Shown in pieces: positions 10,927 to 36,643 of a stretch of DNA of 39,100 bases (positions within the stretch are counted from its first letter, which is position 1; each line of letters opens with the position of its first letter). The notes beneath the pieces are model-generated. The model searched no databases and was not told the DNA's origin. It saw nothing but the letters and a program-made list of their open reading frames with translations. Location: positions 1 to 39,100 of the IMG/VR virus record IMGVR_UViG_3300040801_004087, one strand, 5' to 3'. This stretch comes from a virus. Both the position numbers and the translations under genes were made by a program.

Positions 10927-10971
10927 GGTCTAGGCCAGCGGCCCCGTTCGTTCCCCTGTCCCCCGAGGGAC
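10927..10971 (-). promoter_or_regulatory. Predicted Mor-dependent late promoter, left arm
   Basis: On the minus strand GTCC-CTCGGG-GGAC (10971-10958) is followed after 10 + 14 nt by CTAGACC (from 10933). The same dyad with the same spacing to a CTA element occurs before 19762 and 36652. If TAGACC is the -10 element, the dyad is centred near -44, as for Mor at the Mu middle promoter. The predicted transcript starts near 10920, leaving a leader of about 30 nt. Confidence 0.65.
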
Positions 10972-10977
10972 GGGCGC

Positions 10978-11013
10978 GGTCTTTTTCTAGGGGCGGGTCT
11001 TCTTCTAGGGACG
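10978..11013. repeat. Two 18-bp tandem repeats at the 3' end of mor
   Basis: The unit GGTCTTTTTCTAGGGGCG (10978-10995) is followed directly by GGTCTTCTTCTAGGGACG (10996-11013), with two differences. The second copy contains the mor stop codon (TAG, minus strand) and the first repeats that stop in frame. It looks like a local duplication of the gene end. Confidence 0.75.
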
Positions 11014-11484
11014 GGCCCGTGCGAACAGACTGAACTGGCGGTCTGGCTCCGGCACCCGCCTTAAGGCCTGCGGCACGTCACCGGCAAGGTAGCGGTTCAG
11101 AACGGCCCGCTTGATCCGAAGGCGCTGGGCGGCCGCGGCGATGCTGATCTGGCCGCTTTGGAGCTCGGCGAGGATCGGCGCGGCCCGTGCCCATTTGATC
11201 GCCTCCTTGGCGAGGGGAATGTAGAGCGGCGCGCCGCCGAAGACGTCGATGAAGGCGGCCGCGGCGTCCGGCCCGATCAGCTCCACGAGACTGGCCGCGT
11301 TCTTCACGCGCTTGGGTATATCGACCTCGTCCCCGCCATAGGCGTCGCAGATAAGGAGCGTCGCGTAGCCGCCGATCACGGCCTCGATCTCCATCATGTT
11401 GCGGGTCCAGTAGCCGTTCGGCCGCGCATCCTTCGGGATCGGCAGCTGGTCGACGGTGGGACCGGAGGCGGTGCGGACGCGCAT
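11005..11484 (-). CDS. mor: Mor/C-family late transcription activator
   Basis: This 159-aa protein resembles Mu Mor, which dimerises, binds a dyad near -44 and recruits RNA polymerase to late promoters. The family core L-I-G-x-x-A...F-G-G-x-x-x-Y-I-P is present at residues 64-90 (ELIGPDAAAAFIDVFGGAP then LYIP). A second, weaker copy precedes it at 31-57 (IEAVIGGYATLLICDAYGG then DEVDIP). The C terminus has a helix-turn-helix (ILAELQSGQISIAAAAQRLR, 104-123, to about 134). The start at 11484 overlaps the gp16 stop (TGATG). No second C-like gene was found, so this protein probably controls all late promoters. Confidence 0.85.
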   Translation of the reverse strand: MRVRTASGPTVDQLPIPKDARPNGYWTRNMMEIEAVIGGYATLLICDAYGGDEVDIPKRVKNAASLVELIGPDAAAAFIDVFGGAPLYIPLAKEAIKWARAAPILAELQSGQISIAAAAQRLRIKRAVLNRYLAGDVPQALRRVPEPDRQFSLFARARP

Positions 11485-12284
11485 CAGTCGGCGGTCCTCG
11501 TCTTCAGATTGTGCAGCCGCTCGCCGAGCTGGCTGATGAAGAGGTCCCAAGTGCGCGCGGACCAGCGGCTGCGGTCGCGCGGCAGATCCTGACGGAAGGC
11601 GACGCCTGCGACCGGGTCGGTTGCCTCCTGAACCGGGCGTCCCTTCGCCGGCACGACCTTTGGCAGCACGGCGAGAATCTGCCCGGCGATGGCCTCAGCG
11701 ACGGCCTGACGGTCGGCGACGGCCTCGCTGTCCGGATCGTTCTTGCGCGGCCAGACAACGCCGTGCCGGGCGGCGATGGCCTTCAGCGCCTCGATGATCG
11801 CGGGGGCCTCGCGATGCGTAACGAAGCGGAGCGCATCGACGCCGGACTGACGCTTAACGAAGCTGTCGACCGCCGCGGTCTGACCGGCGGGCATGTCCAG
11901 CGCGCCGAGCCAGTAGCAGCTCCACCAGAGGGCGCTGATCTTGCCGTGGAGGGCCGCGTAAGGCGAGCGTTTGTTGGAGGAAGTGCTTCTGGTAGCAGGA
12001 GAGTCTTCGTCGGGGAAAGCGGATGATTTCCGGCGCTGCGCGCCTTCATTGCCACCGCTTCCGGGACCACCTTTCCCGTTCACCTCGTCGAGGACGCGGC
12101 CGAGCTCGTCGAAGGTGAGGGCGCGGCTGGAGCGTTTGCCGGTGAGGCGTTCGATCAGGTCGTAGCGCGCATCGTCGTCGATCCCGCGCGCTCGGCAGGC
12201 GACCATCAGCGCCTGGATGAGGCGCTTGCGCGGGTCCGCCGATCGGGAGGAGTGGCGGGCGGCTCTACGACGGGCGTCAGTCAT
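11484..12284 (-). CDS. Mu gp16-like regulatory protein (DUF1018)
   Basis: This 266-aa protein is of the gp16/DUF1018 family found just before mor in Mu-like phages. Its N terminus reads RKRLIQALMVACRARGIDDD followed by ARYDLIERLTGKRSSRALT. A low-complexity linker (about residues 68-105) leads to KISALWWSCYWLGALD (about 114-129), and the pattern continues with RQSGVDALRFVTHREAPAII. The family is called regulatory only by position; the biochemical role is unknown. It overlaps the DnaA-like gene by 8 nt upstream and mor by TGATG downstream. Confidence 0.87.
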   Translation of the reverse strand: MTDARRRAARHSSRSADPRKRLIQALMVACRARGIDDDARYDLIERLTGKRSSRALTFDELGRVLDEVNGKGGPGSGGNEGAQRRKSSAFPDEDSPATRSTSSNKRSPYAALHGKISALWWSCYWLGALDMPAGQTAAVDSFVKRQSGVDALRFVTHREAPAIIEALKAIAARHGVVWPRKNDPDSEAVADRQAVAEAIAGQILAVLPKVVPAKGRPVQEATDPVAGVAFRQDLPRDRSRWSARTWDLFISQLGERLHNLKTRTAD

Positions 12285-12687
12285 CGAGGAGGGCCGATCG
12301 TTTCCGCAAGCGAAACTTGGCGCGGTACTGCAGTTTGTCAGTCAGGCGGCGAAACTCCGGGTCGGCCGCGCGGCGGTCCTCGATCCGGTTCACGGCGTGC
12401 ATGACCGTTGTGTGGTCACGTCCGCCCAGCGCGCGGCCGATACGCGGCAGCGAGCGCTGCGTGAGCGTTCGGGCAAGCCAGCACACGAGCTGACGTGCGC
12501 GGACGGCGTCACCGCCGCGGCGCTGGGACACGATATCGAGCGGGGCGACGTCGCATTCGACGCTGACGAACCCGATCAGCTTCGCGACCTCCTGACAGTC
12601 GAGGGCGGACTGGCGCGGCAGCTCGACAACGCCGAGACAGCGTTCCAGCGCCTCGACGCGCTCGCTCAGGGCATCGAGATCGCTCAT
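12277..12687 (-). CDS. Stand-alone DnaA domain IV-like DNA-binding protein
   Basis: This 136-aa protein has, at about residues 65-115, the C-terminal DNA-binding domain of the replication initiator DnaA: ARQLVCWLARTLTQRSLPRI, then GRALGGRDHTTVMHAVNRIE. This contains the DnaA signature (GRDHTTVMHA). No AAA+ domain is present. A short coiled N terminus (DALSERVEALERCLG) precedes it. Such proteins could bind DnaA boxes and compete with or recruit host DnaA, or serve as an early regulator. The start at 12687 overlaps the zinc-protein stop by TGATG. The extension to 12762 in the same frame is the shadow of that neighbour. Confidence 0.85.
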   Translation of the reverse strand: MSDLDALSERVEALERCLGVVELPRQSALDCQEVAKLIGFVSVECDVAPLDIVSQRRGGDAVRARQLVCWLARTLTQRSLPRIGRALGGRDHTTVMHAVNRIEDRRAADPEFRRLTDKLQYRAKFRLRKRSALLDD

Positions 12688-19706: not shown

Positions 19707-19755
19707 CCCCGTCCTGTGGGGGACGGGGGCTGCCGTCTGAGACCCGTTCTATCAC
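19707..19755 (+). promoter_or_regulatory. Predicted Mor-dependent late promoter, capsid/tail operon
   Basis: An 8-bp perfect inverted repeat CCCCGTCC-N6-GGACGGGG (19707-19728) is followed by CTGCC and, after 14 nt, CTATCAC with the -10-like TATCAC at 19750-19755. The 18-mer TGGGGGACGGGGGCTGCC recurs exactly before the lysis operon. If TATCAC is the -10, the start point falls at about 19762, the A of the protease ATG, which has no ribosome-binding site. This predicts a leaderless late mRNA. Confidence 0.68.
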
Positions 19756-19761: not shown

Positions 19762-20814
19762 ATGGCAACGACCCGCTCCATCGAAATTCTCCGGCTAGGC
19801 CGGCACACGTCGCTCGGCGCCGGCGCGCACCAGTTCGGTGAGGCCGAAGCCGCCGCGCTGATCGCGAATTACGACGCGGCGAAGGATCCCGCGCCGCTCG
19901 TCATCGGCCACCCCAAGCTCACCGACCGCGCGCTCGGCTGGGTCGACGGGATGCGGCTGGAAGGTGACGTGATCGTCGCCGACATTTCCGGCATCCCCGC
20001 CGAATTCGCCGAGAGTGAGGAGGCCCAGGGCTTCCGCCGCGTCTCCGCCAGCTTTTACCCACCCGGCCACGCCGCCAGCCCCAACGGCGCGGGCTACTAC
20101 CTGCGCCACGTCGGCCTGCTCGGCGCACACGCGCCGTCCGTGAAGGGCCTCGCCGCCGTCGAGTTCGGCGATGCGGGCGAAGGCCTAGCCGAAATCACGA
20201 CCCTGTTCTCCGCACCGAAAGGACCCACCGTGACGACTCCCAACGCCGCCAAACCGAAGGCCGACCAGGCCGCCACCGAAACCGCTACGGTCGATTTCGC
20301 CGAACGCGAAAAGCAGCTGTCGCAGCGCGAGGCCGACATCGCCGCCCGCGAGGAGCAGGCCGCTGCCGCCGAAGCGGCGCGCGTTCACCAGGACCACGTC
20401 GATTTTGCCGAGACGCTGGTCGGCGAGGCGAAGCTGTCGCCTGCGGGCAAGGGCCTCGTTGTCGGCGTCCTCGACCACCTCGCCGCGCCGCGCTCTGGCG
20501 AGCCGACCTTCGTCGAGTTCGCCGAGGCGGAGGGCGCGACGCCCGCCAAGCTCGACCCCGCCGATGCCTTCAAGAAGCTCTTCGACCGGGCGAAGCCGAT
20601 GATCGAGTTCGGCGAGGCCGCAAAGGATGACGGCGATGCGCCCAAGGGTCCGGCGATCTCGATCCCGACACCTGCTGGTTACGACGTCGATGCGAACCGC
20701 GCCGCCGTCCACAACCGCGCCCTGCAGATCGAGGCGGCCGAGAAGGTCCCCTACGTCGATGCCGCGATCCGCGCCGAGGCCGAACTCGGCAGCAAGGGTG
20801 CCAGCGCCCCCTGA
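19762..20814 (+). CDS. Mu I-like prohead protease with C-terminal scaffold
   Basis: This 350-aa protein matches Mu gpI: an N-terminal protease (about residues 1-150, with LVIGHPKLTDRALGWVDGM, FRRVSASFYPPG and YYLRHVGLLGAHAPSVKGL) followed by a coiled scaffold part (REKQLSQREADIAAREEQAA). The protease matures the prohead after capsid assembly. The His in VIGHPK and the Ser in RRVSASFY are likely catalytic by analogy with the family. No Shine-Dalgarno sequence precedes the ATG, fitting the predicted leaderless transcript. A nested second start is listed separately. Confidence 0.92.
   Translation: MATTRSIEILRLGRHTSLGAGAHQFGEAEAAALIANYDAAKDPAPLVIGHPKLTDRALGWVDGMRLEGDVIVADISGIPAEFAESEEAQGFRRVSASFYPPGHAASPNGAGYYLRHVGLLGAHAPSVKGLAAVEFGDAGEGLAEITTLFSAPKGPTVTTPNAAKPKADQAATETATVDFAEREKQLSQREADIAAREEQAAAAEAARVHQDHVDFAETLVGEAKLSPAGKGLVVGVLDHLAAPRSGEPTFVEFAEAEGATPAKLDPADAFKKLFDRAKPMIEFGEAAKDDGDAPKGPAISIPTPAGYDVDANRAAVHNRALQIEAAEKVPYVDAAIRAEAELGSKGASAP
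20230..20814 (+). CDS. Nested scaffold protein (Mu Z-like), internal start in the protease gene
   Basis: Inside the protease frame a GTG at 20230 is preceded by AAAGGA (20218-20223) at 6-nt spacing, the same motif used by many genes of this phage. Translation from here gives a 194-aa protein (VTTPNAAKPKADQAATETAT...) consisting of just the coiled scaffold part. Mu gene I contains the analogous nested scaffold gene Z. The protein would fill the prohead interior and be cleaved by the protease. Confidence 0.75.
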   Translation: MTTPNAAKPKADQAATETATVDFAEREKQLSQREADIAAREEQAAAAEAARVHQDHVDFAETLVGEAKLSPAGKGLVVGVLDHLAAPRSGEPTFVEFAEAEGATPAKLDPADAFKKLFDRAKPMIEFGEAAKDDGDAPKGPAISIPTPAGYDVDANRAAVHNRALQIEAAEKVPYVDAAIRAEAELGSKGASAP

Positions 20815-20867
20815 CGCCGCCCACGCTGCGAACCCACAGACACGCAATCATCCCGAAGGACTGACCG

Positions 20868-21197
20868 ATGCAGAAGCGCCCCATTTTCACCGACACCCGC
20901 GAGGCCGCCGAGGCGCTCGTCAAGGACCGGTTCGTCAATCACGACGGCAGCCAGACCGCCGCCGGCGAGAAGAGCTACGGCGTCGTGAACTATGACTGCA
21001 ACGCCGGTGACAGCGCACCGGTCGACGTGATCGGCACCACGATCGTCGAACTCGGCGGCACGGTGTCGATCGGCATGCCCCTGAAGGCGGACGCCAGCGG
21101 CCGCGCCATCAATCATGACGGCAGCGGCAGTCTGAACGCGCGTGCACTCGGGGCCGGCGACAGCGGCGACCGCATCGAAGTGATCCTCATTCCCTGA
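20868..21197 (+). CDS. Capsid decoration-like protein (DUF2190)
   Basis: This 109-aa protein shows the DUF2190 pattern (SAPVDVIGTTIVELGGTVSI then GMPLKADASGRAI), a beta-rich protein found between the protease and major capsid genes of Mu-like and other phages. It probably sits on the outer capsid surface and stabilises the head. GAAGGA precedes the ATG by about 8 nt. Confidence 0.83.
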   Translation: MQKRPIFTDTREAAEALVKDRFVNHDGSQTAAGEKSYGVVNYDCNAGDSAPVDVIGTTIVELGGTVSIGMPLKADASGRAINHDGSGSLNARALGAGDSGDRIEVILIP

Positions 21198-21252
21198 CGG
21201 CGCCGCGCCGTCCCTGTTCCCGCCCGTTTAACCAGCCAGGAAAGCCCGTTTC

Positions 21253-22194
21253 ATGGACATCTCCCCCGCACAGGCCCGCATCGTCGATCCGGTCCTTACG
21301 AACCACGCCACCGGCTTTCGCCAGCCCGGCCTGATCGCCGACGTTCTGTTTCCCTACGTCACCGTTGCCACCCGCGCGGCGAAGCGCATCGTGTTCGGGA
21401 AGCAGGCGATGCAGCTTGCCGAGTCGCTCCGGGCGCCGGGTACCGAGATCAAGCGGGTCGCATTCGGCTACGCCGCCGAACCGGTCTCGCTGATCCAGCA
21501 CGCGCTGGCCGCCGTCGTCCCGATCGAGCATGAACAGGAAGCGCGCGAAGTGCCGGGTCTCGACCTGCAGATGCGCGCCGTTGCCCTGGTCGCGGCGAAG
21601 ATCGAGCTGGCCCGTGAAGCCGAAGCTGCCGCCCTCGCCCGCAACGCCGCAAGTTACGCCGCGAGCAACAAGCTGGCCTACACCAGCGGCACGAGTTGGT
21701 GGAACGCGTCGTCCAAACCGAAGCAGGATTTCGAAGCGGGCAAGGAGGCCGTCCGCGCGCGGACCGGCATGCGGCCGAACACCGCCGTCCTGACCGCGAC
21801 GGCGCGCGCTGCGCTCAGCGTGCACGAGGACGTCCTCTCCTACCGCAAGGCGATCGGGCGCTTCGCCGTCGATGATGACGTCCTGAAGGCGTATCTCGGC
21901 GTGGCGCGGCTGGAGATCGCCGACGCGATCGTCGCGGACGCCGACGGCAGCTTCACCGATGTCTGGGGCGATGACGCGATCCTTGCCTACGTTCCGGAAA
22001 GCGAGACGGCCCAGCAGATGGAAATGCCGTCCTACGGCTACACCTACCGCCTGCGCGGGCATCCGGTGGTCAACCCGACCCGCTGGGATCCGAATACGCG
22101 CAGCTGGGTCAACGATTACGTCTCCGAACAGCGGCCGTACATCGTCGGGCCGGACAGCGGTTTCCTGTTCCAGAATGCGGGCCTGAAGGCCTGA
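21253..22194 (+). CDS. Major capsid protein
   Basis: This 313-aa protein is the likely major head subunit (Mu T equivalent, HK97-type fold family by position and pattern). Typical segments are LTNHATGFRQPGLIADVLFP near the N terminus, KIELAREAEAAALARN in the long helix, RTGMRPNTAVLTATARAAL, and a C-terminal GYTYRLRGHPVVNPTRWDPN. CAGGAAAG lies before the ATG. It follows protease/scaffold and decoration genes as expected. A stem-loop after the gene may trim or stabilise the abundant message. Confidence 0.9.
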   Translation: MDISPAQARIVDPVLTNHATGFRQPGLIADVLFPYVTVATRAAKRIVFGKQAMQLAESLRAPGTEIKRVAFGYAAEPVSLIQHALAAVVPIEHEQEAREVPGLDLQMRAVALVAAKIELAREAEAAALARNAASYAASNKLAYTSGTSWWNASSKPKQDFEAGKEAVRARTGMRPNTAVLTATARAALSVHEDVLSYRKAIGRFAVDDDVLKAYLGVARLEIADAIVADADGSFTDVWGDDAILAYVPESETAQQMEMPSYGYTYRLRGHPVVNPTRWDPNTRSWVNDYVSEQRPYIVGPDSGFLFQNAGLKA

Positions 22195-22203
22195 CCCTGA
22201 ACC

Positions 22204-22237
22204 GCCGCCGGGCACTTCTATCCTTCCACCCGGCGGC
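22204..22237 (+). terminator. Stem-loop after the capsid gene
   Basis: GCCGCCGGG (22204-22212) pairs perfectly with CCCGGCGGC (22229-22237) across a 16-nt loop, 10 bp after the capsid stop. No T-tract follows, so it is more likely a partial terminator or mRNA stabiliser than a full Rho-independent stop. The next gene starts at 22313. Confidence 0.5.
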
Positions 22238-25301: not shown

Positions 25302-25305
25302 GCGG

Positions 25306-26058: not shown

Positions 26059-26581
26059 GCCGATGGAGATCACGCTCGACCTGCGCGACGTCCGCGCCGA
26101 TCTCGGGCGCCTGGCTGCGCGCCTGGAGGATCCCGCGCCGGTGATGGCCGAGATCGCGCAGCATCTGGAACTGTCCACGCAGCGCCGGTTCGAGCTCGAG
26201 GAGGGGCCGGACGGCACCGCCTGGCTGAAGTCGCGCCGCGCAAAGGCGGAGGGCGGCAAGACGCTGCAGAAGACGCGGGCGCTGCTGCGCTCGATCCGCA
26301 GCGCGTCGAGCGCGGAAGAATCGGTCGTGGGGGTCGCGAAATCGGGCGGACCGGGGATCTACGCAGCCATGCACCAGTTCGGCGCGACGATCGTCGCCAA
26401 GACCGCGAAGGGCCTCAGCTTCTCGGTTCGGGGCGAGGGCGGAAAGCCGAAGCGCGTGGTGGTGAAATCCGTGAGGATTCCGGCGCGGCCGTTTCTCGGC
26501 CTGTCGGACGGCGACCGCTCGGCCGTGCGCGGCATCGTCGGCGATTATCTCGCGGGCGCGGTGGGAGGGCAGCGTCCATGA
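26051..26581 (+). CDS. Mu G-like virion morphogenesis / tail completion protein
   Basis: This 176-aa protein shows the phage virion morphogenesis (gpG/gpS) pattern: LDLRDVRADLGRLAARLEDP, then QHLELSTQRRFELEEGPDGT then AWLKSR, and near the end IPARPFLGLSDGDRSAV. The family closes the head-tail joint. The GTG at 26051 overlaps the preceding gene by 8 nt, and its stop overlaps the next ATG. In Mu the G gene follows F directly, but here F is on the opposite arm. Confidence 0.88.
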   Translation: MAEPMEITLDLRDVRADLGRLAARLEDPAPVMAEIAQHLELSTQRRFELEEGPDGTAWLKSRRAKAEGGKTLQKTRALLRSIRSASSAEESVVGVAKSGGPGIYAAMHQFGATIVAKTAKGLSFSVRGEGGKPKRVVVKSVRIPARPFLGLSDGDRSAVRGIVGDYLAGAVGGQRP

Positions 26582-27006
26582 ATTTCGCGCCCATCGTCCA
26601 GCGCCTTCAGGATTTCGGAATGCCGCGCGTGAACCGCGTCGGCGCTTTCGCGCTGATCGCCGCAGAACCCGTCAACCACCTGCCCGCGACCTTCGTGGTG
26701 CCGGGCGAGGAGCGCGTCGAACCGCGCCGGAAGATCGCCGGCAAGTACGACCAGCGGATCAACTGCGACTTCCTCGTCTACCTGATCGTCGGGGCGGAGC
26801 GCGCGAACGCGGACGCGATCGACCGCGATTACGACCGCTACTCCGCGCTCGCGGTCGATGCGCTGACCGGCTGGGTCCACCCGGACGCGGAGGGCCGCGC
26901 GACCGAGTACCAGGGCGCGGAGCTCCTCAGCCTGAAACAGCGCGAGCTGGGGTGGGGCATCGCCTTCCGCACCTTCCGCCGCATCACCCGAACCGAGACC
27001 GACTGA
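26578..27006 (+). CDS. Tail terminator-like protein (Mu gp37 position)
   Basis: This 142-aa protein (IVQRLQDFGMPRVNRVGAFA, VPGEERVEPRRKIAGKYDQR, FLVYLIVGAERANADAIDRD) has the gene position and size of the Mu gp37 / tail terminator family that caps the tail tube before joining. Similarity was judged by pattern only. It is coupled to the G-like gene by ATGA. Confidence 0.7.
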   Translation: MNFAPIVQRLQDFGMPRVNRVGAFALIAAEPVNHLPATFVVPGEERVEPRRKIAGKYDQRINCDFLVYLIVGAERANADAIDRDYDRYSALAVDALTGWVHPDAEGRATEYQGAELLSLKQRELGWGIAFRTFRRITRTETD

Positions 27007-27043
27007 ACCCTGCCTGCAATCCGCCTGAAAGGACGCTGAAACC

Positions 27044-27349
27044 GTGACGAAAGCCAAACCGAAGAGCCCGCCAGCCGAGCCGCAGGCCGAAGCGGCCCCG
27101 CCCACGCGGTCGGAGGCTGCCGACGGCCGGTCGCCGAACGAAGTCGAACCGTCCCCGGTGCCCGGCTGGTTCGACCAGAAGGCGCACCTGCGCCTCGCCG
27201 ACGGGCGGATCATGGAACACGCGACCGGACGGTTCCTGAACGGTGACGGCGACCCTGCGTCGCCCGCCGTCAGGAAGCACGAACCCGTCCGCGAACGGAT
27301 CGCGGGCGACGATGCCGCAGCCGCCCCCGACCCCCCGAAGAAGGACTGA
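27044..27349 (+). CDS. Small Pro/Ala-rich protein of unknown function
   Basis: This 101-aa polar protein has a disordered N-terminal third (KAKPKSPPAEPQAEAAPPTR), a short ordered middle (WFDQKAHLRLADGRIMEHAT) and a basic/acidic tail. GTG 27044 follows GAAAGGA at normal spacing. It sits just before the tail tube gene, where Mu gp38 lies. Function unknown. Confidence 0.68.
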   Translation: MTKAKPKSPPAEPQAEAAPPTRSEAADGRSPNEVEPSPVPGWFDQKAHLRLADGRIMEHATGRFLNGDGDPASPAVRKHEPVRERIAGDDAAAAPDPPKKD

Positions 27350-27352
27350 TCA

Positions 27353-28294
27353 ATGCGCGACCTCAGCTACATTCTCGCCGCTCGCGAGAGCACCTACGCC
27401 ACTGCCCCGGCGATGACTGGCCCCGCCAACACGCAGGAGATCTGGGACTACAACCCGGAACCGGCGATCTACGACGAGCAGCACCGCCGCGCGCAGCGGA
27501 TCGTTCCGGGCGCGCGCAGCTCGGTGATGGTGCACGGCCGCCAGCGCCACCCGTTCAAGTTCGACCTGCGCGGCTCCGGCACCGACACCGTGGCCCCGCG
27601 CTGGACCGCGTTCCTGGGCGCGGCGATGTACGGCGACCCGGTCCCGGACACCGATCATGTCGATTACCCGCTCCTGTCGACGGCGGAAGGGGATAGCCTG
27701 GCGCTGATCGGCCAGAAGGACCGCGTGAAGATGACGCCGACCGGCGTGCGCGGAAACATTCGCTTTGTGTTCGAGGAGGGCCGCGAACCCTACGGCGATG
27801 CGGACTTCATGGGCCTTCTGCCCGCACTGCCCGTCGGGGCGGCCCCGGTCGCGCCGGTCTTCCCGAGCGAACCGGACGCCGAGCCCGTCACGAGCGAGAA
27901 CACGACCATCCAGATCGACGGCTACAGCGTGCTTCTCCGCTCGCTGACGATCGATCTGGGGATGAAGACCGCCTACCGCAGCCTGGTCGGTTCGGAGCGG
28001 ATCACCTTCACCAGCGACAACACCGGCGACCGCCGCCAGGTCGGCGGCCGGATCGTGGCGGAACTGCCCGACCCCTCGGTCAAGTCCTTCTTCGAGAAGG
28101 TCGCCGCGCAGCAGACGATGGGCTTCAGCGTGGTTCACGGGTCCGGCGCGGGCCGGATCATCTCGTTTGCGAGCGGACAGCTGCGGATGAAGCCGATCAG
28201 CTTCTCCGAGGAGCAGGGCGAGATCATGATGACGGCCGATCTCTCCTTCGTGCCGGTCCTCGCGAACAACGACATCACGCTGACGACGAGCTGA
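27353..28294 (+). CDS. Major tail tube protein (siphovirus type)
   Basis: This 313-aa beta-rich protein lies between the connector genes and the G/GT chaperones, the fixed place of the siphovirus tube protein. Recognisable stretches are FKFDLRGSGTDTVAPRWTAF, LLRSLTIDLGMKTAYRSLVG and SERITFTSDNTGDRRQVGGR. No sheath gene follows, so the tail is non-contractile, as in the B3/D3112-type transposable phages and not Mu. Confidence 0.82.
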   Translation: MRDLSYILAARESTYATAPAMTGPANTQEIWDYNPEPAIYDEQHRRAQRIVPGARSSVMVHGRQRHPFKFDLRGSGTDTVAPRWTAFLGAAMYGDPVPDTDHVDYPLLSTAEGDSLALIGQKDRVKMTPTGVRGNIRFVFEEGREPYGDADFMGLLPALPVGAAPVAPVFPSEPDAEPVTSENTTIQIDGYSVLLRSLTIDLGMKTAYRSLVGSERITFTSDNTGDRRQVGGRIVAELPDPSVKSFFEKVAAQQTMGFSVVHGSGAGRIISFASGQLRMKPISFSEEQGEIMMTADLSFVPVLANNDITLTTS

Positions 28295-28305
28295 AGGAGG
28301 CGCGC

Positions 28306-28800
28306 ATGTTCACGCTCAAGACACAGGTCGCCTACTGGTGGCCGGTCATCTGGAACGGCGCGTCGGCCGAGGAGCCGGGCGCGGTCATCGAAAACCGCCT
28401 CGACGTCAAGTTCCGCCGCAAGGACCGCTCTGACCTGAAGGCTTTGTTCGGCGACGAGCTGGAGCGGGCGAAGGGGCAGTCGCCACTCGACCTGCGCTTC
28501 GGCGACCCGGAACGGGACCGGGAGATCGTCGACCAGCTGGTCGACGGCTGGCGCGGACTGTTCGACGAGGACGGCCGGAACGAGCTGCCGTTTGCCGACC
28601 CGTACATCGGCCAGATGATCGAGCTGCCGGGCTTCATGCACGGCCTCGTCCTCGCCTATTTCAAATTCGTCGGCGGCGTCGAGGAGACGCGCCGGGGAAA
28701 CTCGAACGGGTCGCCCGCTGGTGGGCCGGCGACCGATCCGAAGCCCGAAGCGGCAGCGCCGGCGAGCGCGAACGCTGGGACGAGCGCGCCCGCGCGCTAG
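28306..28800 (+). CDS. Tail assembly chaperone G
   Basis: This 164-aa protein is the short product of the tail chaperone pair, binding the tape measure during assembly. Recognisable parts are ENRLDVKFRRKDRSDLKALF and IVDQLVDGWRGLFDEDGRNE then LPFADPYIGQMIELPGF. Its tail after residue 130 is low-complexity (Ser, Gly, Pro, Ala), as expected when the sequence is mainly constrained in the other frame. AGGAGG precedes the ATG. The slippery site GGGAAAC is at 28695-28701. Confidence 0.88.
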   Translation: MFTLKTQVAYWWPVIWNGASAEEPGAVIENRLDVKFRRKDRSDLKALFGDELERAKGQSPLDLRFGDPERDREIVDQLVDGWRGLFDEDGRNELPFADPYIGQMIELPGFMHGLVLAYFKFVGGVEETRRGNSNGSPAGGPATDPKPEAAAPASANAGTSAPAR

Positions 28801-29138
28801 CCGAATGGGAGCTGTCCACCACCCGGATCGAGGCCGAGCTCGGCCCGCGCCCCGCTGCGCCCTCGGCGGGCGTGGAGGCCGTCGAGCTTCAGGCGGACGA
28901 CGAGGGGCAGGTCGCGCTCCTGTTCCTGGCGATGGACACGCAGTGGCGCTGGACGGGCGAGGGTATCCGCACCGGCCTCGACGTGTCGGCGCTGGAGACG
29001 GTCGCGCGGCTGAACGGGATCGAGCTGCGCGCGGACGCGGCGTTTATGGCCGACCTTCGCGCGATGGAGCGCGCGGCGGTGAAGGTGTTCCAGGAGGAGC
29101 GGCTGCGCGTTCTCCGCGACGCGCGGCGCGGTGGGTAG
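28306..29138 (+). CDS. Tail assembly chaperone fusion G-T by programmed -1 frameshift
   Basis: A slip at GGGAAAC moves translation from RRGN to the -1 frame, giving RGKLERVARWWAGDRSEA, then ERERWDERARALAEWELS, and a C-terminal T domain with VALLFLAMDTQWRWTGEG. The second frame is open from 28701 to the stop at 29138. The fusion is 277 aa against 164 aa for G alone. This is the lambda G/GT arrangement. An internal ATG at 28872 exists but has no ribosome-binding site, so the T part is probably made only as a fusion. Confidence 0.85.
28695..28701 (+). promoter_or_regulatory. Programmed -1 ribosomal frameshift site GGGAAAC
   Basis: In the zero frame the bases read G-GGA-AAC, the canonical X-XXY-YYZ heptamer. 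After slipping to GGG-AAA the next codon CTC begins the open -1 frame. The lambda G/GT site is GGGAAAG, so the heptamer is nearly identical. Confidence 0.88.
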
Positions 29139-32055
29139 TGGGGGCGTTGACCCGGTGACCGACCTGAACCTCAAACTGCGGCTGACCGCCGACGGTCTGT
29201 CGATCGTCGGCCAGCAGGTGCGCCAGACGGCGGATGAGGTCGAGGGCCTCGGTACCTCCGGCGCCCAGGCGTCGTCCGGCCTGTCGCAGGCGGGCCGCGA
29301 AGCGAAAGAGACCAGCCAGGCCGCGACCGGGCTCAGCCAGACCTCGGCGCAGGCGGCGCGGCGGCAGAAGGAACTCGACCAGGCCGCGCGGCAGGCGGCA
29401 GGGGCGATGGGGGCGCTCGATGCCAGCTCCGGCGCGGCAAGCCGGGCAATGGTCGACCAGGCCGCGCTTGCAGACTCGCTCGGCCGGTCCATCCAAGGCC
29501 TCGGCCGGCCGATGAACGCCGTGACGCTGAGCGGCCGAAATCAGCAGGCGATGATGCAGAACCTGTCGTTCCAGATTCAGGACGTCACCCAGCAGTTCGC
29601 GCTCGGCGTCAATCCGATGACGATCTTCGCGCAGCAGGGCGGACAGGTTGCCTACGCGCTGCAGGGTGTGAACGGGCGCGTGGGACAGGTCGCGGCCGCC
29701 CTCTCCGGTCCCTACGGCGCGGCAGCCCTTGGCGCGGTGACGATCACGGCGGCGATCGCAACGTCGCTCTGGCAGTCTGCCGAGGCGGCCGAAGCCGCCG
29801 AGGATGCAACCGAGGACCTGACCGAGGCGCAGGTCGAGCTAAAGCGCATCCAGGAGGGCACGCTGCTGTCCCGCCGCGAGCTGATCCTGCTGGCGATCAA
29901 CCAGGCGCGCGCGGACCTCGAAGCGGCGGCCGCCACCCGCGCGCGGGCAAAGGCGCTGATCGAGCAGCTGCGCGCCGAACGGCAGCTGGCGCGCCTCGTC
30001 GGCGGCGAAGCGGGCGCGGCCGTCGGCAACATCATCGGCGGCGACATTCGCGCGGCGGAGGGCCGCATTGATGCCGCCGCCGCGGACGCCGCGCAGATCG
30101 AGCAGGCGCTGCAAAAGGCCTACAACGAGCTGTTCGCCAGCTTCGATCTGCCGTCACTCTCTGAGTTGTTCGCGGGCATCCCTGAAGACGTCGAAGAGAT
30201 CACGGGCGAAACGAATGAGCTGAAGGACGCAACTGCGGGTGTCGAGGCTGCCTGGCAGCGGACGATGCAGCAGATCGAGCGGATCGCGGACAGCGAAATC
30301 GCGGCGGTGACCCGTGAGGTCAACCAGCTCGAAGCCGCCTACGATCCACTTGCCGCAGCAGCTAGAAACTACGCCGACGAGCTTGACCGGATCGCGGCGT
30401 TCGAGGTGTCGAACCGGATCTCCGCCGCGCAGGCCGGGCGGTACCGGGAAGGGGCTGCGCGGGCGAATTCTGCGGCGATCTCCGCTGCGCTTGCACGCGA
30501 CTTCCCGGAGATCTTCGAGGATAATGGCGAGCGCGCCGGACAGGCGTTCGCGCGGGAGGCGCTGGCGCGCGCCGAAGCGATCGGCCAGCTGATCGGCGGC
30601 GAAGCGGGCGCGGCGATCACGACCGCTGTCGGAATCGTCGAGGGTGCCCAGTCGGGGGACTTCACGGCCATCGGCGGCCGCACGGGCGGGCTCGCGACGA
30701 TCCTGTCCGACGTGTTCGGCGAGAATGGCGACTTCAAGAAGGGACTGGGCGACGTTCTCGGCAACCTTCTTCCCGATGACCTCAAGCTCGGCGAGTCGAT
30801 CGCGGGCGCACTCAACAAGATCGGGATCGAGGGTTCCCTGGGCGAGATCGGCGGCCGCGCAGCTGGCGGTGCAGCCGTGGGGACACTTTCGAACGGGCTC
30901 CTCGATCTGATCGGCGTCAAGTCGAGCCAGGCGGGCGCACAGATCGGCGGCGCGATCGGCGGGGCCGTGGGCGGGCCGGTCGGCTCGATCGTCGGCTCGC
31001 TTCTCGGCGGTATCAGCGGCGGGCTCCTCTCCGATTCCACCGACGTCGGGGAGGCGACGATCAACCGGATCGGCGGCCCGATCCGGCTGGAGGAGGACAA
31101 TGCCGAGTTCGGCGCGGCGGCGATGAACGTGGCGAATGCCGTCACCGAAGGCGTCGAACGGATCGCCGAGGCGCTCGGCGGCGGCGTCGGGTCCGGCGCG
31201 GCGTCGGTGAGCGTGCGGAACGGCAGCTACCGGCTCGACCGCACCGGCCAGTCGCTCAGTTCGACGAAGAACGGGGCCATCGATTTCGGCCAGGACGCCG
31301 AGGGCCTGCGCGACGCCGCGATCGCCGACCTGATTGCCGACGGCGCGGTCACCGGCCTCTCCGCCGCCGTCGAACGCGCGCTCCGCTCCTCTCCGGATCT
31401 TGAAGAGGCGCTGGCCGAGGCGCTGAAGGTCAAGGCGCTTGAAGACGAGCTGAACGCGGCTTTCAATCCGTTTGTCGCGGCCACACGCGAGTTTGAGGCG
31501 CAGGCCGCCGAGCGCGTCCGGATCGCGCGCGAATACGGTTTCGACGTCGTCGAGATCGAGCGGCGGAATGCGGAGGACCGGGAGGCGCTGACCCGCGAGC
31601 TGCTGAGCAACCAGGTCGGCGCGCTCCAGTCCTTCCTCGACGATCTGGAATTCGGCAGCCTGTCGGAAGGGTCGGCGAGCGACCGGCTCGGCCGCCTGCG
31701 CGGCGAGATCGACGATCTGCGGGACGGGCTCGATCCCGGCGACGCCGAAGCGAACAACCGCCTCGCGGGCCTACTGCGCGAATTCGTCACCCTGTCGGAG
31801 GACTCGGGCGGCACGGCGGGCAATTTCGCCGCCGACCGTGCCTTCGCCCGCGCGGCCGCGTCCGAGGTCGTCTCGGACGCTGAGCGCCAGCTGGCCGAAA
31901 GCCAGAAACAGACCGCGCAGCTCGACGAGTTGAACGACCAGGTGTCCGAACTGTCGGCGACGATGGACGCGGTGCGCCGTGCGGTCGAAGCGGGTGGTTT
32001 CGGTGGCGGCGGCTTTGGCGGTGGTGAGTTCGCCTACCGGATTCAGGCCCGCTGA
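29131..32055 (+). CDS. Tape measure protein
   Basis: This 974-aa protein sets tail length and helps DNA passage. It is mostly helical with Ala/Gln-rich heptads in the first 110 residues, a hydrophobic segment near 190-215 (ALGAVTITAAIATSLW), and a Gly-rich hydrophobic stretch near 600-632 (IGGAIGGAVGGPVGSIVGSL). By the usual 0.15 nm per residue, the tail would be about 145 nm. The start is GTG 29131 overlapping the T stop; GTG 29155 is an alternative. The stop overlaps the next start as TGATG. Confidence 0.9.
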   Translation: MGSGGVDPVTDLNLKLRLTADGLSIVGQQVRQTADEVEGLGTSGAQASSGLSQAGREAKETSQAATGLSQTSAQAARRQKELDQAARQAAGAMGALDASSGAASRAMVDQAALADSLGRSIQGLGRPMNAVTLSGRNQQAMMQNLSFQIQDVTQQFALGVNPMTIFAQQGGQVAYALQGVNGRVGQVAAALSGPYGAAALGAVTITAAIATSLWQSAEAAEAAEDATEDLTEAQVELKRIQEGTLLSRRELILLAINQARADLEAAAATRARAKALIEQLRAERQLARLVGGEAGAAVGNIIGGDIRAAEGRIDAAAADAAQIEQALQKAYNELFASFDLPSLSELFAGIPEDVEEITGETNELKDATAGVEAAWQRTMQQIERIADSEIAAVTREVNQLEAAYDPLAAAARNYADELDRIAAFEVSNRISAAQAGRYREGAARANSAAISAALARDFPEIFEDNGERAGQAFAREALARAEAIGQLIGGEAGAAITTAVGIVEGAQSGDFTAIGGRTGGLATILSDVFGENGDFKKGLGDVLGNLLPDDLKLGESIAGALNKIGIEGSLGEIGGRAAGGAAVGTLSNGLLDLIGVKSSQAGAQIGGAIGGAVGGPVGSIVGSLLGGISGGLLSDSTDVGEATINRIGGPIRLEEDNAEFGAAAMNVANAVTEGVERIAEALGGGVGSGAASVSVRNGSYRLDRTGQSLSSTKNGAIDFGQDAEGLRDAAIADLIADGAVTGLSAAVERALRSSPDLEEALAEALKVKALEDELNAAFNPFVAATREFEAQAAERVRIAREYGFDVVEIERRNAEDREALTRELLSNQVGALQSFLDDLEFGSLSEGSASDRLGRLRGEIDDLRDGLDPGDAEANNRLAGLLREFVTLSEDSGGTAGNFAADRAFARAAASEVVSDAERQLAESQKQTAQLDELNDQVSELSATMDAVRRAVEAGGFGGGGFGGGEFAYRIQAR

Positions 32056-34922
32056 TGAGCGCGGCCTTCGTCCTCCTCACGGTGAAACCGCGCGACCCGG
32101 CGACGGGCGCGCCGCAGACGCTGCTGCTGGCGGGCGGCGGCGGTGCGGGCGAGGCTTATCCGGCGGGGTTCTGGGGCGGCCTTGCCGACGTGCCGCCGGT
32201 TGGCTCGGCGCTGGCGATCGATGCGGCAACGCTCGGCGGCCAGATTGCCCCGCGCCAGGCGCAGATCGTCTGGCATCCGAACGAGGCGGCGCGCCTCGCC
32301 CTGGCTCGCTCGCTCTACTGGCCGGGCGCCGAAGCGGTCCTCGAACGCATTGAGGACGGCGCGCGCGCCGCTGTCCTGACCGGCCGCGTGACCGCCGAAG
32401 CCTGGCAGGAGGAGCGGCTGACCCTGACGGTCGTCGATGCCGGCGCGGATCTGGGCGGCGTGTTCCTGTCCGGCAGTTTCGCCGGTACGGGCGGGCTCGA
32501 GGGCGACGAGAATGCCGAGGGGCGCCTCAAGCGCCGCAGCTTCGGCCGCTGCGAGAATGTCGAGCTCTTGCCGCTCCTCGCGGCGGACAACATCTTCGAG
32601 GCGGGCGATCCCGGCGAAGCGCTGCAGGCGTTCACCGAGATCCGCGACAAGGGTTTTCCGGCCGACCCGGCCAAGGTGAAAGCCGTCGCCTGGGCGGGGA
32701 CCTCTGCGGCGACGCTTGCCGCGCTGCAGGCGGTCCAACTCGGGGAGGGCGAAACCTTCCTCGCTGCCGCCGCGCCCTCGATCGCCTGTGTGAAGTGGTG
32801 GACGCGCCCCTCCGGCCCGCTGACGGCGACGATCGAGGGCGAGATCGGCGGACCGGGCGGTTCGGACTACGCGGACACGGCCGCCGGCATCGCCGCGCAG
32901 CTGGTCGGCGAAGCGGGCGGGCCTGCCCTTGCAGCGGGGACCGTAGCGGCAGCGGAAACGGCGAGGCCCGGTCTCGCCGGGCTCCACGTCGGTTCGGCGG
33001 CGCGCACGAACGAGATCCTGCAGACGCTGCTGTCCGGCGTGTCGCTCTACTGGCTGGTGAACCCCGCAGGCGAGATCAAGATCGGCGCCTGGGACTTCGG
33101 CGCTCCGGTCGCTGCCCTGACCTCCGAAGGGTTCGCGCGGGCCGCGCCGCTGCCGCCCGTCGCCGCCGTCGAGCTCGGCTACCGCACCAACTACCGGGTC
33201 CACGACGCGGGCGAAGTCGCCGATTCGAGCGCGCAGCGGATCACTGGCCCCTGGGATCCGGCGCGCACCTACCGCTACGGCGATCTCGCGTCAGAGGGCG
33301 GGACCCTGTTCGAATACTTCAATGCCAACCCGGCGAGCGGCGTGACGACGGACACCGTCACGCACTGGCGCGCCGTTCTGCTGACCGAAGCGGGCCTCAG
33401 TTTTCGCGGGACCTGGTCGGGCGCGAATGTCAGCTACCTTGCGGGCGATCTGGTGAACCACGACAATGCAGCGTGGGCGTCGCTGCAGGACCACGTCTCC
33501 GGGCCGTCGCTGGCTCCCGGCACGCCAAACGGCGCCAGCTTCTGGGAGAAGGTGCTGGACGGTGGGGTAACGCCGCTGAGGACGACGGCGACGGTGCCGG
33601 TGTTCAGTCTGACGCGGAACGTTGACGGTACGATCAACGAAACGCTGCCGCTGGACACGATCCTGACCGTTACGCAGGGCCAGACGAACGTAACCTCCGG
33701 CGCGGTATTCCAGATCGTCGAAGAGCGGTTCTGCGACGTGACGCCGGTGGGGCTGTCCGCCTTCCGGCTGAACAGCGTGGCGGCCGGCGTTACCGGTGCC
33801 AGCTTTACGATCAACGTCGCGTCGGCGGGTCTGCAGGATCGGATCACGGTCGCGGTGGTCATCGCCAACGACGGCGCGAAGGGCGCCGACGGGGTAAGCC
33901 CGCTGCAGATCACGACACCGCTCGTCCGAATCCCGTGCGCGGCGGACGGAACGCCGATCGGCAGCGGTCCCTGGACTGGTGCCGTCACCGTGCACGCTGG
34001 AAGCATCGATGTATCGAGCCAGGCAACGGTTCAGATAACGGGAACGACCGGCGTCCTTGGGCAGGACGTCGGCGTCGCCGCCCAGACGGTCGCGATCTAC
34101 AATCCGCAGGCCGACGGCGGGTTCGTGCGGCTGAACGTGACCGTGGGCGACATCACGACCGCCCACACCCTCGACTTCCAGAAACAGAGGCCGGGCGAGG
34201 ACGGCATCGATGGCCCGAACGTCATTGTCGATCCGCCCGCCACCGTGCTTCATCTCGACGAGGAAGGCAACGTGATGGGCGCGCCGCAGCGAGTGCGGCT
34301 GAGGGCCTACCGCGACGGGCTTTCGAAGCCGATCACGGGCGTTTCCAGCGTCATTCACGGCGGCGGTTACGCCACGGCTGCGGCGGACGGCACCGACATC
34401 GTCGTGTCGGCAAGCGGGCCGCCCGGCGGTCCGGTGACGGCGAATGTCGCCTTTGACGGGATCAGCCAGCAGATCGGCTTCAAGGTCGAGGTCGTGTTCG
34501 ACGGCGTGTCGGGCGGCGAGGACAAGGTTTCCGCCTTCATCGATACCTGTGACACGAACTCGATCTTTTCCGAGGTGGCGCGTGTGTCACTCACAACCGG
34601 TCCCACCGGCAAAGTTTTCGTGAACCTCGTTCACGTTTACGCCTCGACGACCGGGAGCGCCTTCTCTCAGAATGCCAAAGTTCAGTACTCCCTGGCCGGG
34701 GCCAACAGCTGGAACGATTTCGACATCGGTCCGGGATCGGACGACTTTGCGACCGGGCTTCTAGCCTACTCGGACGGGACGGCCGGATTCGTCGAAGGTT
34801 CGGGAGCCGCGAACCTTACTGCGGACACCAGATACGACTTCCGCGCTGAACTCGCCGAGGGGTCGGGCAGCGTCGGCGGCTACACGGCGCGCGGGCGGAT
34901 GATGGTGCGGCGCAATGACTAG
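32055..34922 (+). CDS. Large tail tip / central fibre protein with carbohydrate-binding-like modules
   Basis: This 955-aa protein follows the tape measure and is the likely tail hub or host-recognition protein. The N-terminal 390 residues are a beta-rich hub-like part (PRQAQIVWHPNEAARLALAR, VELGYRTNYRVHD). Then two short modules of the W-x(n)-Y-x-x-G-D type occur: WDPARTYRYGDLASEGGTLF (about 397-416) and WSGANVSYLAGDLVNHDNAA then WASL (about 456-479). These resemble CBM5/12 chitin-binding modules. The remaining part is made of beta sandwich-like repeats. The last domain probably contacts the host surface. Confidence 0.78.
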   Translation: MSAAFVLLTVKPRDPATGAPQTLLLAGGGGAGEAYPAGFWGGLADVPPVGSALAIDAATLGGQIAPRQAQIVWHPNEAARLALARSLYWPGAEAVLERIEDGARAAVLTGRVTAEAWQEERLTLTVVDAGADLGGVFLSGSFAGTGGLEGDENAEGRLKRRSFGRCENVELLPLLAADNIFEAGDPGEALQAFTEIRDKGFPADPAKVKAVAWAGTSAATLAALQAVQLGEGETFLAAAAPSIACVKWWTRPSGPLTATIEGEIGGPGGSDYADTAAGIAAQLVGEAGGPALAAGTVAAAETARPGLAGLHVGSAARTNEILQTLLSGVSLYWLVNPAGEIKIGAWDFGAPVAALTSEGFARAAPLPPVAAVELGYRTNYRVHDAGEVADSSAQRITGPWDPARTYRYGDLASEGGTLFEYFNANPASGVTTDTVTHWRAVLLTEAGLSFRGTWSGANVSYLAGDLVNHDNAAWASLQDHVSGPSLAPGTPNGASFWEKVLDGGVTPLRTTATVPVFSLTRNVDGTINETLPLDTILTVTQGQTNVTSGAVFQIVEERFCDVTPVGLSAFRLNSVAAGVTGASFTINVASAGLQDRITVAVVIANDGAKGADGVSPLQITTPLVRIPCAADGTPIGSGPWTGAVTVHAGSIDVSSQATVQITGTTGVLGQDVGVAAQTVAIYNPQADGGFVRLNVTVGDITTAHTLDFQKQRPGEDGIDGPNVIVDPPATVLHLDEEGNVMGAPQRVRLRAYRDGLSKPITGVSSVIHGGGYATAAADGTDIVVSASGPPGGPVTANVAFDGISQQIGFKVEVVFDGVSGGEDKVSAFIDTCDTNSIFSEVARVSLTTGPTGKVFVNLVHVYASTTGSAFSQNAKVQYSLAGANSWNDFDIGPGSDDFATGLLAYSDGTAGFVEGSGAANLTADTRYDFRAELAEGSGSVGGYTARGRMMVRRND

Positions 34923-35466
34923 GCGCGTTACCCTCCGCCGCGACGACACCGGCGAGCTGCAGCACACCGGCCCGAACCTCGCGCGCATCGATTTCTCGGT
35001 CTGGCGCGTCGTGGGGCCAGTGCCGGAGGGCTTCGACCCAGAGCTGTTCCGCTACGACGCGGAGGCGAATGAGGGCCGCGGCGCGATGGTGCCCGACCCG
35101 GCTGCCTACTGCCGCCGCGCCGAACGCCGCCTGGCAAAGCGCGCGGCGGCGGCGATGGCCGAGATCGAGACGCCGGAGCTGCAGCGGGTGCACGCCGCGA
35201 AACTGGCCGAGGCGGACACGCTCCTCGTTAATCTGAGGGCGGACGTGCCGATCCTTCGCGCAGAGGCAGAGGCAACGGGCAAAGATGTGCAGGCGCTGGC
35301 TCTCTCCGTCAGCATCCGGGCCTGCGCGACGACCCGCGCACTCGCCCGCATCGAGGCGAAACGCGCTCGCGCCAAACGCGCGCTCCGCGCCGCTGCCGCG
35401 GCCGAGGGCACCCGCGCCGCGATGGACGCGGTTCTGACCGATCTGGAGAGGGAGGGCTGGGGATGA
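34915..35466 (+). CDS. Tail-region protein with long helical C terminus
   Basis: This 183-aa protein (RRDDTGELQHTGPNLARIDF then SVWRVVGPVPEGFDPELFRY) has a small beta N terminus and a long Ala/Arg-rich helix over residues 70-180. It overlaps the tail tip gene by 8 nt and couples by ATGA to the next gene. It could be a fibre-associated protein or a chaperone for the tip. No family recognised. Confidence 0.65.
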   Translation: MTRRVTLRRDDTGELQHTGPNLARIDFSVWRVVGPVPEGFDPELFRYDAEANEGRGAMVPDPAAYCRRAERRLAKRAAAAMAEIETPELQRVHAAKLAEADTLLVNLRADVPILRAEAEATGKDVQALALSVSIRACATTRALARIEAKRARAKRALRAAAAAEGTRAAMDAVLTDLEREGWG

Positions 35467-35801
35467 GCCTGACCGGCGAAGACGCCGCCTACCTGCAGCA
35501 GGCCTCGCTGCGCGTGCGCGCGGCCGACGGCACCGTGGCGGCCAATTTCGGCGCCGACGCGGTGACGATCCGCGCGCAGTCGCCGCTGCAGGAGCGGTCC
35601 GACGCGGCGGCGGAGGCGCAGCGCCAGCTCGCCTTTCGCGCCGGGCCGCTGGTGCCCGAGACGCACCGCGTGGCGGGCGAACACGACCAGCTGACCGGCC
35701 GCACCGTGACGATCGACGGCGAGACCTGTTTCGTTACCGGCTGCGCGCCGCAGGCGGGCCGGGCCGTGACGCTGCTGTCCGTTCTCAGGCGGCTGAGCTG
35801 A
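35463..35801 (+). CDS. Small tail-region beta protein
   Basis: In this 112-aa protein, the C-terminal part (LTGRTVTIDGETCFVTGCAP then AVTLLSVLRRLS) looks like a small beta-barrel. The N terminus (AAYLQQASLRVRAADGTVAA) is strand-rich. Located between tail-tip proteins. No certain family. Confidence 0.65.
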   Translation: MSLTGEDAAYLQQASLRVRAADGTVAANFGADAVTIRAQSPLQERSDAAAEAQRQLAFRAGPLVPETHRVAGEHDQLTGRTVTIDGETCFVTGCAPQAGRAVTLLSVLRRLS

Positions 35802-35814
35802 GGGGGCGGGGCGG

Positions 35815-36558
35815 ATGAACCTGATCCTCGTCGAGCCGATGGCGATCGCCGCCGTCAGCGCCAGCGCCGGCACGGGCGCCGCGAACCTCGCGACCCTCGA
35901 TCCGAAGGAGCGCTGGTCGGCGGCCAGCTCCACGAACCCCGTCACCATCGACATCGATCTCGGCATGCCGCGCGCCTTTGACACCGTCGGGTTCGTCGAC
36001 ACGATCTACCTTGCCGGGATCGCGCTCGACGGCGGCGCGGCGCACGACGTGCCGCTGCTGGCGAACACGCCGCTCGGCGTCACCGGCGCGCCGCCGACGG
36101 GCCGCGGTCACTTCGTGAAGCGCCTGCCCGCCGTGACCGTCCAGCAGCACCTGCGCGTCACCTTCACGCCGAGCGGGGCCGTGCCGAGCGCGGGGCGGAT
36201 CATCGTCGGCCGCGCCGTCGAGACGACGCACGATCAGGAATATGACGGCGGCCGCAGGCCCGGATCGACCGGTACGGCAGAGCGCCTGCGCGGCGGCGGG
36301 TTCGGGATCCAGCGCGGCGCCAGCTTCGCCACGGTCAGCTGGACCTGGGGCGACCTGTCCGACGCGGAACTGGCGGCGATCTGGGCCGTCACCCAAGGGG
36401 TCGGCGGCGAACTTCCGCTCCTCGTCGCCGAGAATGCCGAGGCGGACAGCTATTTCGCGCGCGGCGTCTGCTACGGCCGCTTCAGCCGCTTCGAACGCTA
36501 CAACCGCCGCGAAGGCGCGAAGAGCCGCTGGGCCTTCGAGCTGGAACAGTGGGTATGA
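35815..36558 (+). CDS. Distal tail / minor tail protein
   Basis: This 247-aa protein has a galactose-binding-like N-terminal sandwich (ATLDPKERWSAASSTNPVTI then DIDLGMPRAFDTVGFVDTIY), then a region with TWGDLSDAELAAIWAVTQGV near residue 175 and the end YGRFSRFERYNRREGAKSRW. The size and pattern fit minor tail proteins located at the distal end in transposable siphoviruses. Precise role is inferred from position, last gene before the lysis operon. Confidence 0.7.
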   Translation: MNLILVEPMAIAAVSASAGTGAANLATLDPKERWSAASSTNPVTIDIDLGMPRAFDTVGFVDTIYLAGIALDGGAAHDVPLLANTPLGVTGAPPTGRGHFVKRLPAVTVQQHLRVTFTPSGAVPSAGRIIVGRAVETTHDQEYDGGRRPGSTGTAERLRGGGFGIQRGASFATVSWTWGDLSDAELAAIWAVTQGVGGELPLLVAENAEADSYFARGVCYGRFSRFERYNRREGAKSRWAFELEQWV

Positions 36559-36598
36559 GCGTGCGGAGCGCAGCGCCCGTTGTTTCGGTGTCGCCCGC

Positions 36599-36643
36599 GT
36601 CCGCTGGGGGACGGGGGCTGCCCGCGCCCGCCCGCGCTAGTCA
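36599..36643 (+). promoter_or_regulatory. Predicted Mor-dependent late promoter, lysis operon
   Basis: GTCC-GCTGGG-GGAC (36599-36612), then GGGGGCTGCC, 14 nt and CTAGTCA (-10-like TAGTCA at 36638-36643). An 18-bp stretch is identical to the promoter before 19762. The predicted start point is about 36650, two bases before the holin-like ATG at 36652, again without a ribosome-binding site. Confidence 0.65.

Follow-up and report, generated by a model that had tools for sequence, protein, structure and literature searches.

The stretch of DNA analysed here, referred to as the window, comprises the 39,100 nucleotides (nt) of the IMG/VR virus record IMGVR_UViG_3300040801_004087 and holds a transposable prophage with one gene for a Mor/C-family activator and three sites that combine the inverted repeat GTCC-N6-GGAC with a CTA 24 nt further on. 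These sites are very probably three late promoters that, like Pm of Mu, depend on an activator, and through them one Mor/C protein would switch on the packaging, head-tail and lysis genes together. Mor would be made from the early leftward transcript and would bind, as a dimer, a 5-N6-5 inverted repeat centred near -44. Bound Mor would substitute for a missing -35 element and recruit the host RNA polymerase to a weak -10 element, the TA of which stands at a fixed distance (31 nt from the dyad centre to NTA). The packaging, head-tail and lysis transcripts, located at three places and running in both directions, could in this way be turned on together without a Mor-then-C cascade, and each would start at or a few nt from the start codon of its first gene, so that the mRNAs would be near-leaderless. 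While Mu has already provided examples of Mor/C activators with their dyads, two features appear to be new: a regulon that works in one step on three to four late promoters of a split genome, and a half-site that drifts although the geometry stays fixed. The literature searched, which was largely without subscription papers, contained no description of a Mor regulon under one activator or of drifting half-sites, and the available parts of reports on Mu-like phages other than Mu give Mor and C as gene annotations without mapped promoters (PMC2628397, PMC8705779, PMC5488378). The sequence comparison made here predicts an entire one-step late regulon, with its promoters and operator geometry, across dozens of phages.

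Three candidate late promoters and a single Mor/C gene

A preliminary description of the window had placed three matching sites in it, and all three were found, each consisting of GTCC-N6-GGAC, N24 and CTA (10971-10931 on the minus strand, 19711-19751 and 36599-36639 on the plus strand; Table 1), compared with no copy in any of 100 shuffles. Each site precedes a late operon, namely packaging (site 1), head-tail (site 2) and lysis (site 3). The 18 identical bases that had been noticed in two of them are TGGGGGACGGGGGCTGCC, common to sites 2 and 3, in which the repeat extends to 5-N6-5 (CGTCC/GGACG); site 1 reads CGTCC/GGACA. The bare perfect dyad occurs five times in the window, a mild excess over the 1.02 +/- 1.00 copies in 100 shuffles, one of which reached five, and the dyad with at most one mismatch is not enriched (26 in the window vs. 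29.0 expected); the signal therefore resides in the CTA spacing and in the positions ahead of operons. The remaining two perfect dyads, at 21751 and 34729, are located within the major head gene and within the open reading frame (ORF) 32055-34922, and neither is accompanied on either strand by a TA 24 nt away. A relaxed scan, in which one of the eight half-site bases could deviate and every NTA 24 nt away was accepted, returned the same three sites only. Judged by eye, GGGAC-N5-CTGC could suggest a sigma-54 promoter, but the -12 part is missing from site 1 and this reading was abandoned. A tandem of two near-identical 18-base copies of CGYCCCTAGAARAAGACC is found immediately upstream of site 1, at 10978-11013 on the minus strand, and the first copy spans the mor stop codon.

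If the TA of the CTA element is assigned to -12/-11, the dyad centre falls near -44.5 and the ATG of the head maturation protease, 13 nt past the C of the site 2 CTA, at about +1. At site 1, the ATG of a leader ORF is found 14 nt beyond the first base of CTA, and the packaging transcript would open with this 10-codon ORF overlapping the next start. In the closest relative, G484, a 10-codon ORF read by eye occupies the equivalent position, with a GTGA overlap. The late mRNAs are probably near-leaderless.

In Mu, the Pm promoter is placed just after mor. Two papers on Pm describe two 5-bp repeats with a GC-rich 6-bp spacer, a centre at -43.5 and a -10 element in the absence of a -35 element (PMC4390567, PMC4287176). 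This layout matches the earlier remark that an N6-spaced dyad near -44 is what Mor/C activators use in Mu. The window shares with Pm the 5-N6-5 dyad near -44, the -10 element and the lack of both a -35 and a TGn element; the activator is likewise matched by the phrog_836 profile, and the gene order gemA-mor is the same. By their 5-N6-5 dyad and absent -35 element, the window sites would fit a Pm-type promoter, with the position relative to the start taken from the TA. However, the half-site letters differ, and the window has three promoters, whereas Pm is one. Pm drives a second activator, whereas the window promoters would drive packaging, head-tail and lysis directly, with an ATG almost at the inferred start. 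The Mu promoters Plys, PI, PP and Pmom, which are used by C, are similar in that dispersed late promoters with related dyads are served by one Mor/C-family protein (PMC4287176). In Mu, C is a second protein beside Mor, whereas phrog_836 detected only one Mor/C gene in the window, and the late genes of the window run in both directions, unlike the Mu late promoter system.

The mor gene is matched by phrog_836 ("late transcriptional activator") with an E-value of 1.7e-19, and this profile also detects Mor and C of Mu. An AlphaFold2 model of the protein, with a mean predicted local distance difference test (pLDDT) score of 87.9 (95 for residues 111-120, 93 for 121-130 and 74 for 131-140), predicts a C-terminal helix-turn-helix (HTH) with helices 115-122 and 126-133; judged by its sequence and this predicted HTH, the protein belongs to the Mor/C activator family. 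Among 37 aligned Mor proteins (alignment A3, without G412, G660, G691 and L130), phrog_836 was matched by all 37, HTH_23 by 14 and the Pfam Mor family (PF08765) by 11, the latter two at E 0.01. In 32 whole records, phrog_836 detected a single gene each for the window and 29 relatives, none in L130, whose Mor is truncated in our reading, and two in Mu (Mor and C), a count in which a very diverged C might escape and some records are possibly fragments. The claim of a single mor gene is therefore borne out in the window and in the whole records of 29 of the 30 relatives, and a second Mor/C paralog, as in a Mu-type Mor-then-C cascade, was not found with this profile in any of these 30 genomes. A profile built on seven Mor proteins of the clade, which was run for most loci on a stretch of up to 21.6 kb, detected a single ORF in 41 of 43 phages and none in two short contigs. 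Two GG-x4-IP units, GGDEVDIP and GGAPLYIP (residues 50-57 and 83-90), sit in repeated helix-strand parts of the Mor model, which suggests an internal duplication in this protein.

Fixed geometry and varying half-sites in related phages

Through the host gene that the prophage interrupts, which has its best match (61%) in G015, a bacterial family was reached, and a close transposase, 46-59% identical, was present in six of 397 genomes of this family. A genome search at the order level added one relative (G1001), and searches at the genus level gave no additional ones. A transposase alignment search of viral contigs returned 79 loci, and the comparison was made with the 48 loci that belong to the same clade (L118-L165); a terminase search led to distant phages, those in genome contigs all being labelled Acetobacteraceae. 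When Mor or the transposase served as the only query, direct searches of viral and genome contigs yielded no relatives, and no viral contig matched the exact pattern of the window. After removal of 13 near-identical copies, the 56 sequences yielded 43 non-redundant phages, including the window, with 112 late regions (40 packaging, 39 head, 26 tail and 7 lysis).

Ahead of the same genes in these phages, the geometry of the sites proved to be conserved, while the letters GTCC/GGAC, for which a search in related prophages had been suggested, were not; the lack of conservation that had been named beforehand as a refutation was thus not observed for the layout. In G484, G506 and G641, dyad and spacing are present ahead of the head protease and ahead of a tail gene; G484 also has the equivalent of site 1 after mor (13502, minus strand) and a lysis site in the same place (GTCTGCTGGCGGAC-N24-ATA). 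In a scan free of any half-site, which accepted every perfect 4-bp dyad with a gap of 0-11 and a distance of 10-37 to YTA, the combination of gap 6 and distance 24 was found in 34 of the 112 late regions, compared with about 3 in background cells. Three of these regions belong to the window and 31 to other phages (18 head, 8 tail and 5 packaging). The other combinations with the same centre were also frequent (34 regions for gap 4/distance 25, 26 for 8/23, 21 for 10/22 and 18 for 2/26), which indicates one dyad with its centre 31 nt before the Y of YTA. A half-site common to two late regions of one phage was seen in nine phages at 6/24, eight at 4/25, four at 8/23 and two at 10/22, and in none or one elsewhere. 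For the head promoter, NTA or CAT was required 8-24 nt ahead of an ATG; with the true centre, at least four of five pairs were formed in 30 of 39 phages, including the window, whereas each of 24 shifted centres gave only 0-4. In three of these 30 (G641, L122 and L124), the ATG taken for the call is not in frame with the mapped protease. The first base of NTA lies 12-14 nt from the ATG in 36 of 39 head-promoter calls, and in 29 of the 30 head promoters the best match to a -35 hexamer is at most three of six bases, no better than at random positions. Retention of the geometry before the same operons, together with the single Mor/C gene, supports the proposal that one mor gene would switch on the packaging, morphogenesis and lysis transcripts.

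The half-site statistics rest on the 30 head regions with at least four of five pairs. Their promoter-proximal half is GGAC in 11 phages, GGAA and GGAT in four each, TCAC and TTAC in three each, GGCT in two, and TGAC, GGTT and TGAA in one each. This gives nine 4-mer types; since TCAC and TTAC are mixed within one phage, eight is the cautious count. Within a phage, the type is re-used. When no -10 element was required, 11 of 27 packaging regions contained a perfect own-type dyad, as did 10 of 21 tail and 3 of 5 lysis regions; the numbers expected were 0.6, 0.25 and 0 from the types of other phages and 0.5, 0.3 and 0.07 from random 4-mers. The own half-site (at least seven of eight bases) followed by N24 and NTA occurs 53 times in late regions, about 30 of these being the defining head sites, compared with 0-4 times at twelve other spacings and 2.4 times with the types of other phages. 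Scores for own and swapped half-sites favoured the own type in 18 of 21 tail regions (p 9e-5) and 18 of 27 packaging regions (p 0.01); in the five lysis regions, the difference was not significant (p 0.06). A fixed geometry with drifting recognition letters is the best reading of these comparisons across the relatives.

For the more distant phages, 70 sequences were scanned, of which 40, 36 of them distinct, had a Mor match with the clade profile, and the 700 nt after mor were searched. A perfect 5-N6-5 dyad at the same centre was present in 9 of 36, compared with 0-3 at 24 shifts, so that the geometry extends beyond the clade; in six of the nine, NTA lies 43-60 nt past the last codon of mor. 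Among other Mu-like prophages, which include Acetobacteraceae loci of L004-L031, several have a dyad of the same geometry after mor, mostly with other half-sites.

Mor as the proposed binder of the dyads

Mor could be compared with the half-site in 28 of the 30 phages, as two contigs lack mor, and on a tree of 27, from which the truncated L130 was left out. Residue 125 is S, K or P in all 20 phages with G at half-site base +4 and A or N in all eight with T; T or Y at residue 131 goes with T at base +7 in 6/6 cases, and other residues never do (22/22). As the second HTH helix of the AlphaFold2 model spans 126-133, residues 130 and 131 lie on it and residue 125 just before it. A readable Mor recognition code may be glimpsed here, though this remains a tentative proposal that we hold with somewhat less than even confidence. 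In such a code, the geometry would stay constant and the half-site would move through eight to nine types or more, Mor and the late promoters would change together, and single helix residues (125 for +4; 130-131 for +6 and +7) would set single bases, leaving a natural series of orthogonal activator-promoter pairs with near-leaderless late mRNAs. The predicted regulon is also a natural experiment in which an activator and several dispersed promoters change their specificity together.

A number of results weigh against a Mor regulon or against Mor as the binder. On a Mor tree built without these columns, each residue-base link is supported by two to three independent pairs, which point in the same direction and are not significant. 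The distance between whole recognition helices does not follow the half-site distance (Mantel r 0.11, p 0.16; partial r -0.05 to 0.10), and half-site distance correlates better with muA (r 0.31) than with Mor (r 0.15-0.21). Given these negative covariation tests, the assignment of Mor as the binder of the dyads, which we infer, draws mainly on geometry, position and gene count. The window Mor matches PF08765 below the cut-off (E 0.0054), our own clade-Mor profile did not match Mor or C in the searched stretch of Mu, and Foldseek/VIA fold searches with the Mor model returned no Mor chain, an absence that excludes nothing, and no hit with E <0.001 or Z >=5; a sequence search of solved structures returned a Peptidase C39-like chain (E 0.0004) and weak matches, and no Mor. 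With regard to the sites, 9 of 39 head regions stay below four of five pairs, and 13 own-type sites lie outside late regions, compared with 53 inside. Regularity is lowest at the packaging promoter: an own-type dyad is followed by NTA at the 24-nt spacing in only 8 of 27 regions, and several others have the dyad with CA where NTA is expected (ACAATGTG in G506 and L139, ACACTGTG in L130). Several relatives have an extra site, absent from the window, ahead of a tail gene, and this site overlaps the end of a coding gene, so that part of its conservation may be coding.

It is improbable that the dyads serve another DNA-binding protein of the phage, such as the conserved HTH protein 14534-14941, the product of 14898-15473, the DnaA-C-like protein 12277-12762 or the repressor. 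The early region does encode several HTH-like proteins, and half-site distance follows 14898-15473 about as it follows mor (Mantel r 0.21 each, with muA higher). The recognition helix of 14534-14941, however, is nearly unchanged across the half-sites GGAC, GGAT and TGAA (G1001, L128 and L160), which disfavours this protein, and it differs between L128 and L154, both of which have GGAT. In a tblastn search (E 1e-3) of the 30 phages for which a head site was called, the window among them and some contigs being short, the DnaA-C-like protein was found in 11 and 13129-13617 in 2. The dyad geometry is that of Mu Mor, and own-type sites occur mainly in late regions, with none near the early genes of the window.

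A role for Mor as the DNA-binding activator also has to be held against readings in which no protein binds the repeats. They could form RNA hairpins, as terminators or leader structures, and the arms do reach past the core and change in step between phages (TCGGCGTCC/GGACGCCGA and TAACCGTCC/GGACGGTTA). A hairpin would require pairing only, yet a single half-site is re-used at several loci of one phage; moreover, the distance from dyad centre to NTA is constant, the inferred start lies downstream of the dyad, and no T-run follows it at the three window sites, which makes this explanation very unlikely. It is even harder to believe that a GC-rich palindrome recurs by accident or through protein conservation. 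The missing enrichment of the bare dyad with one mismatch and the coding overlap of the tail site would agree with this, but the head sites precede the start codon and cluster at a single centre, which contradicts chance or coding constraint for the head promoter, and the shuffles contained no dyad with N24 and CTA.

Prophage layout and neighbouring genes

The prophage is complete and extends from about 118 to 38983, with the ends TGT...ACA and a flanking 5-bp direct repeat, GACCA, as target duplication. The interrupted host gene appears glycosyltransferase-like from its translation, read by eye. TTAATGTCG-like repeats are found close to both prophage ends, at 125, 316, 372 and 38955. The prophage encodes a MuA-like transposase (rve and Mu-transpos_C), an AAA ATPase in the place of MuB, GemA and Mor, as well as a Gp27-like small terminase, a MuF-like protein, a head protease and an endolysin. 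Early and packaging genes run leftward in the window and head-tail and lysis genes rightward, and this split orientation is kept by six relatives of the same bacterial family; the distant phages in which head genes were found (G012, G124, G138, G146 and G294) have colinear genomes.

Table 1. Predicted late promoters, the activator gene and the late transcripts of the window, with inferred extents for the three transcripts.
Feature	Coordinates	Strand	Description
Site 1, packaging promoter (predicted)	10927..10971	-	dyad GTCCCTCGGGGGAC 10971-10958, 24 nt, CTA 10933-10931
Site 2, head-tail promoter (predicted)	19707..19755	+	dyad CGTCCTGTGGGGGACG, core 14 bp 19711-19724, 24 nt, CTA 19749-19751
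Site 3, lysis promoter (predicted)	36599..36643	+	dyad CGTCCGCTGGGGGACG, core 14 bp 36599-36612, 24 nt, CTA 36637-36639
mor	11005..11484	-	Mor/C-family activator, 159 amino acids; phrog_836
10-codon leader ORF	10887..10919	-	MFNHAFRNCS*; stop overlaps start of next gene (ATGA)
Packaging transcript	1535..10890	-	10483-10890, 10181-10486, terS (Gp27), terL, portal, MuF-like
Head and tail transcript	19762..36558	+	head maturation protease, decoration, major head, tail genes
Lysis transcript	36652..38087	+	ORFs 36652-36963, 36976-37539, endolysin 37536-38087

The head maturation protease (19762-20814) is matched by phrog_976 (E 4.6e-65) and the endolysin by phrog_315 (E 3e-37) and Glyco_hydro_108 (E 2e-18). 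Family searches against profile libraries gave no match for the other two lysis ORFs, the first of which is small and looks membrane-spanning by eye. The early gene at 12277-12762 on the minus strand carries the DnaA C-terminal domain (Bac_DnaA_C, E 5.7e-21). Two further ORFs on the minus strand are found where the packaging transcript would end: 2868-3707 encodes a D12-class N6-adenine methyltransferase according to Pfam, and 404-1147 looks adenine methyltransferase-like from its translation; the homolog of the latter is placed between muA and prot in G660 and G691.

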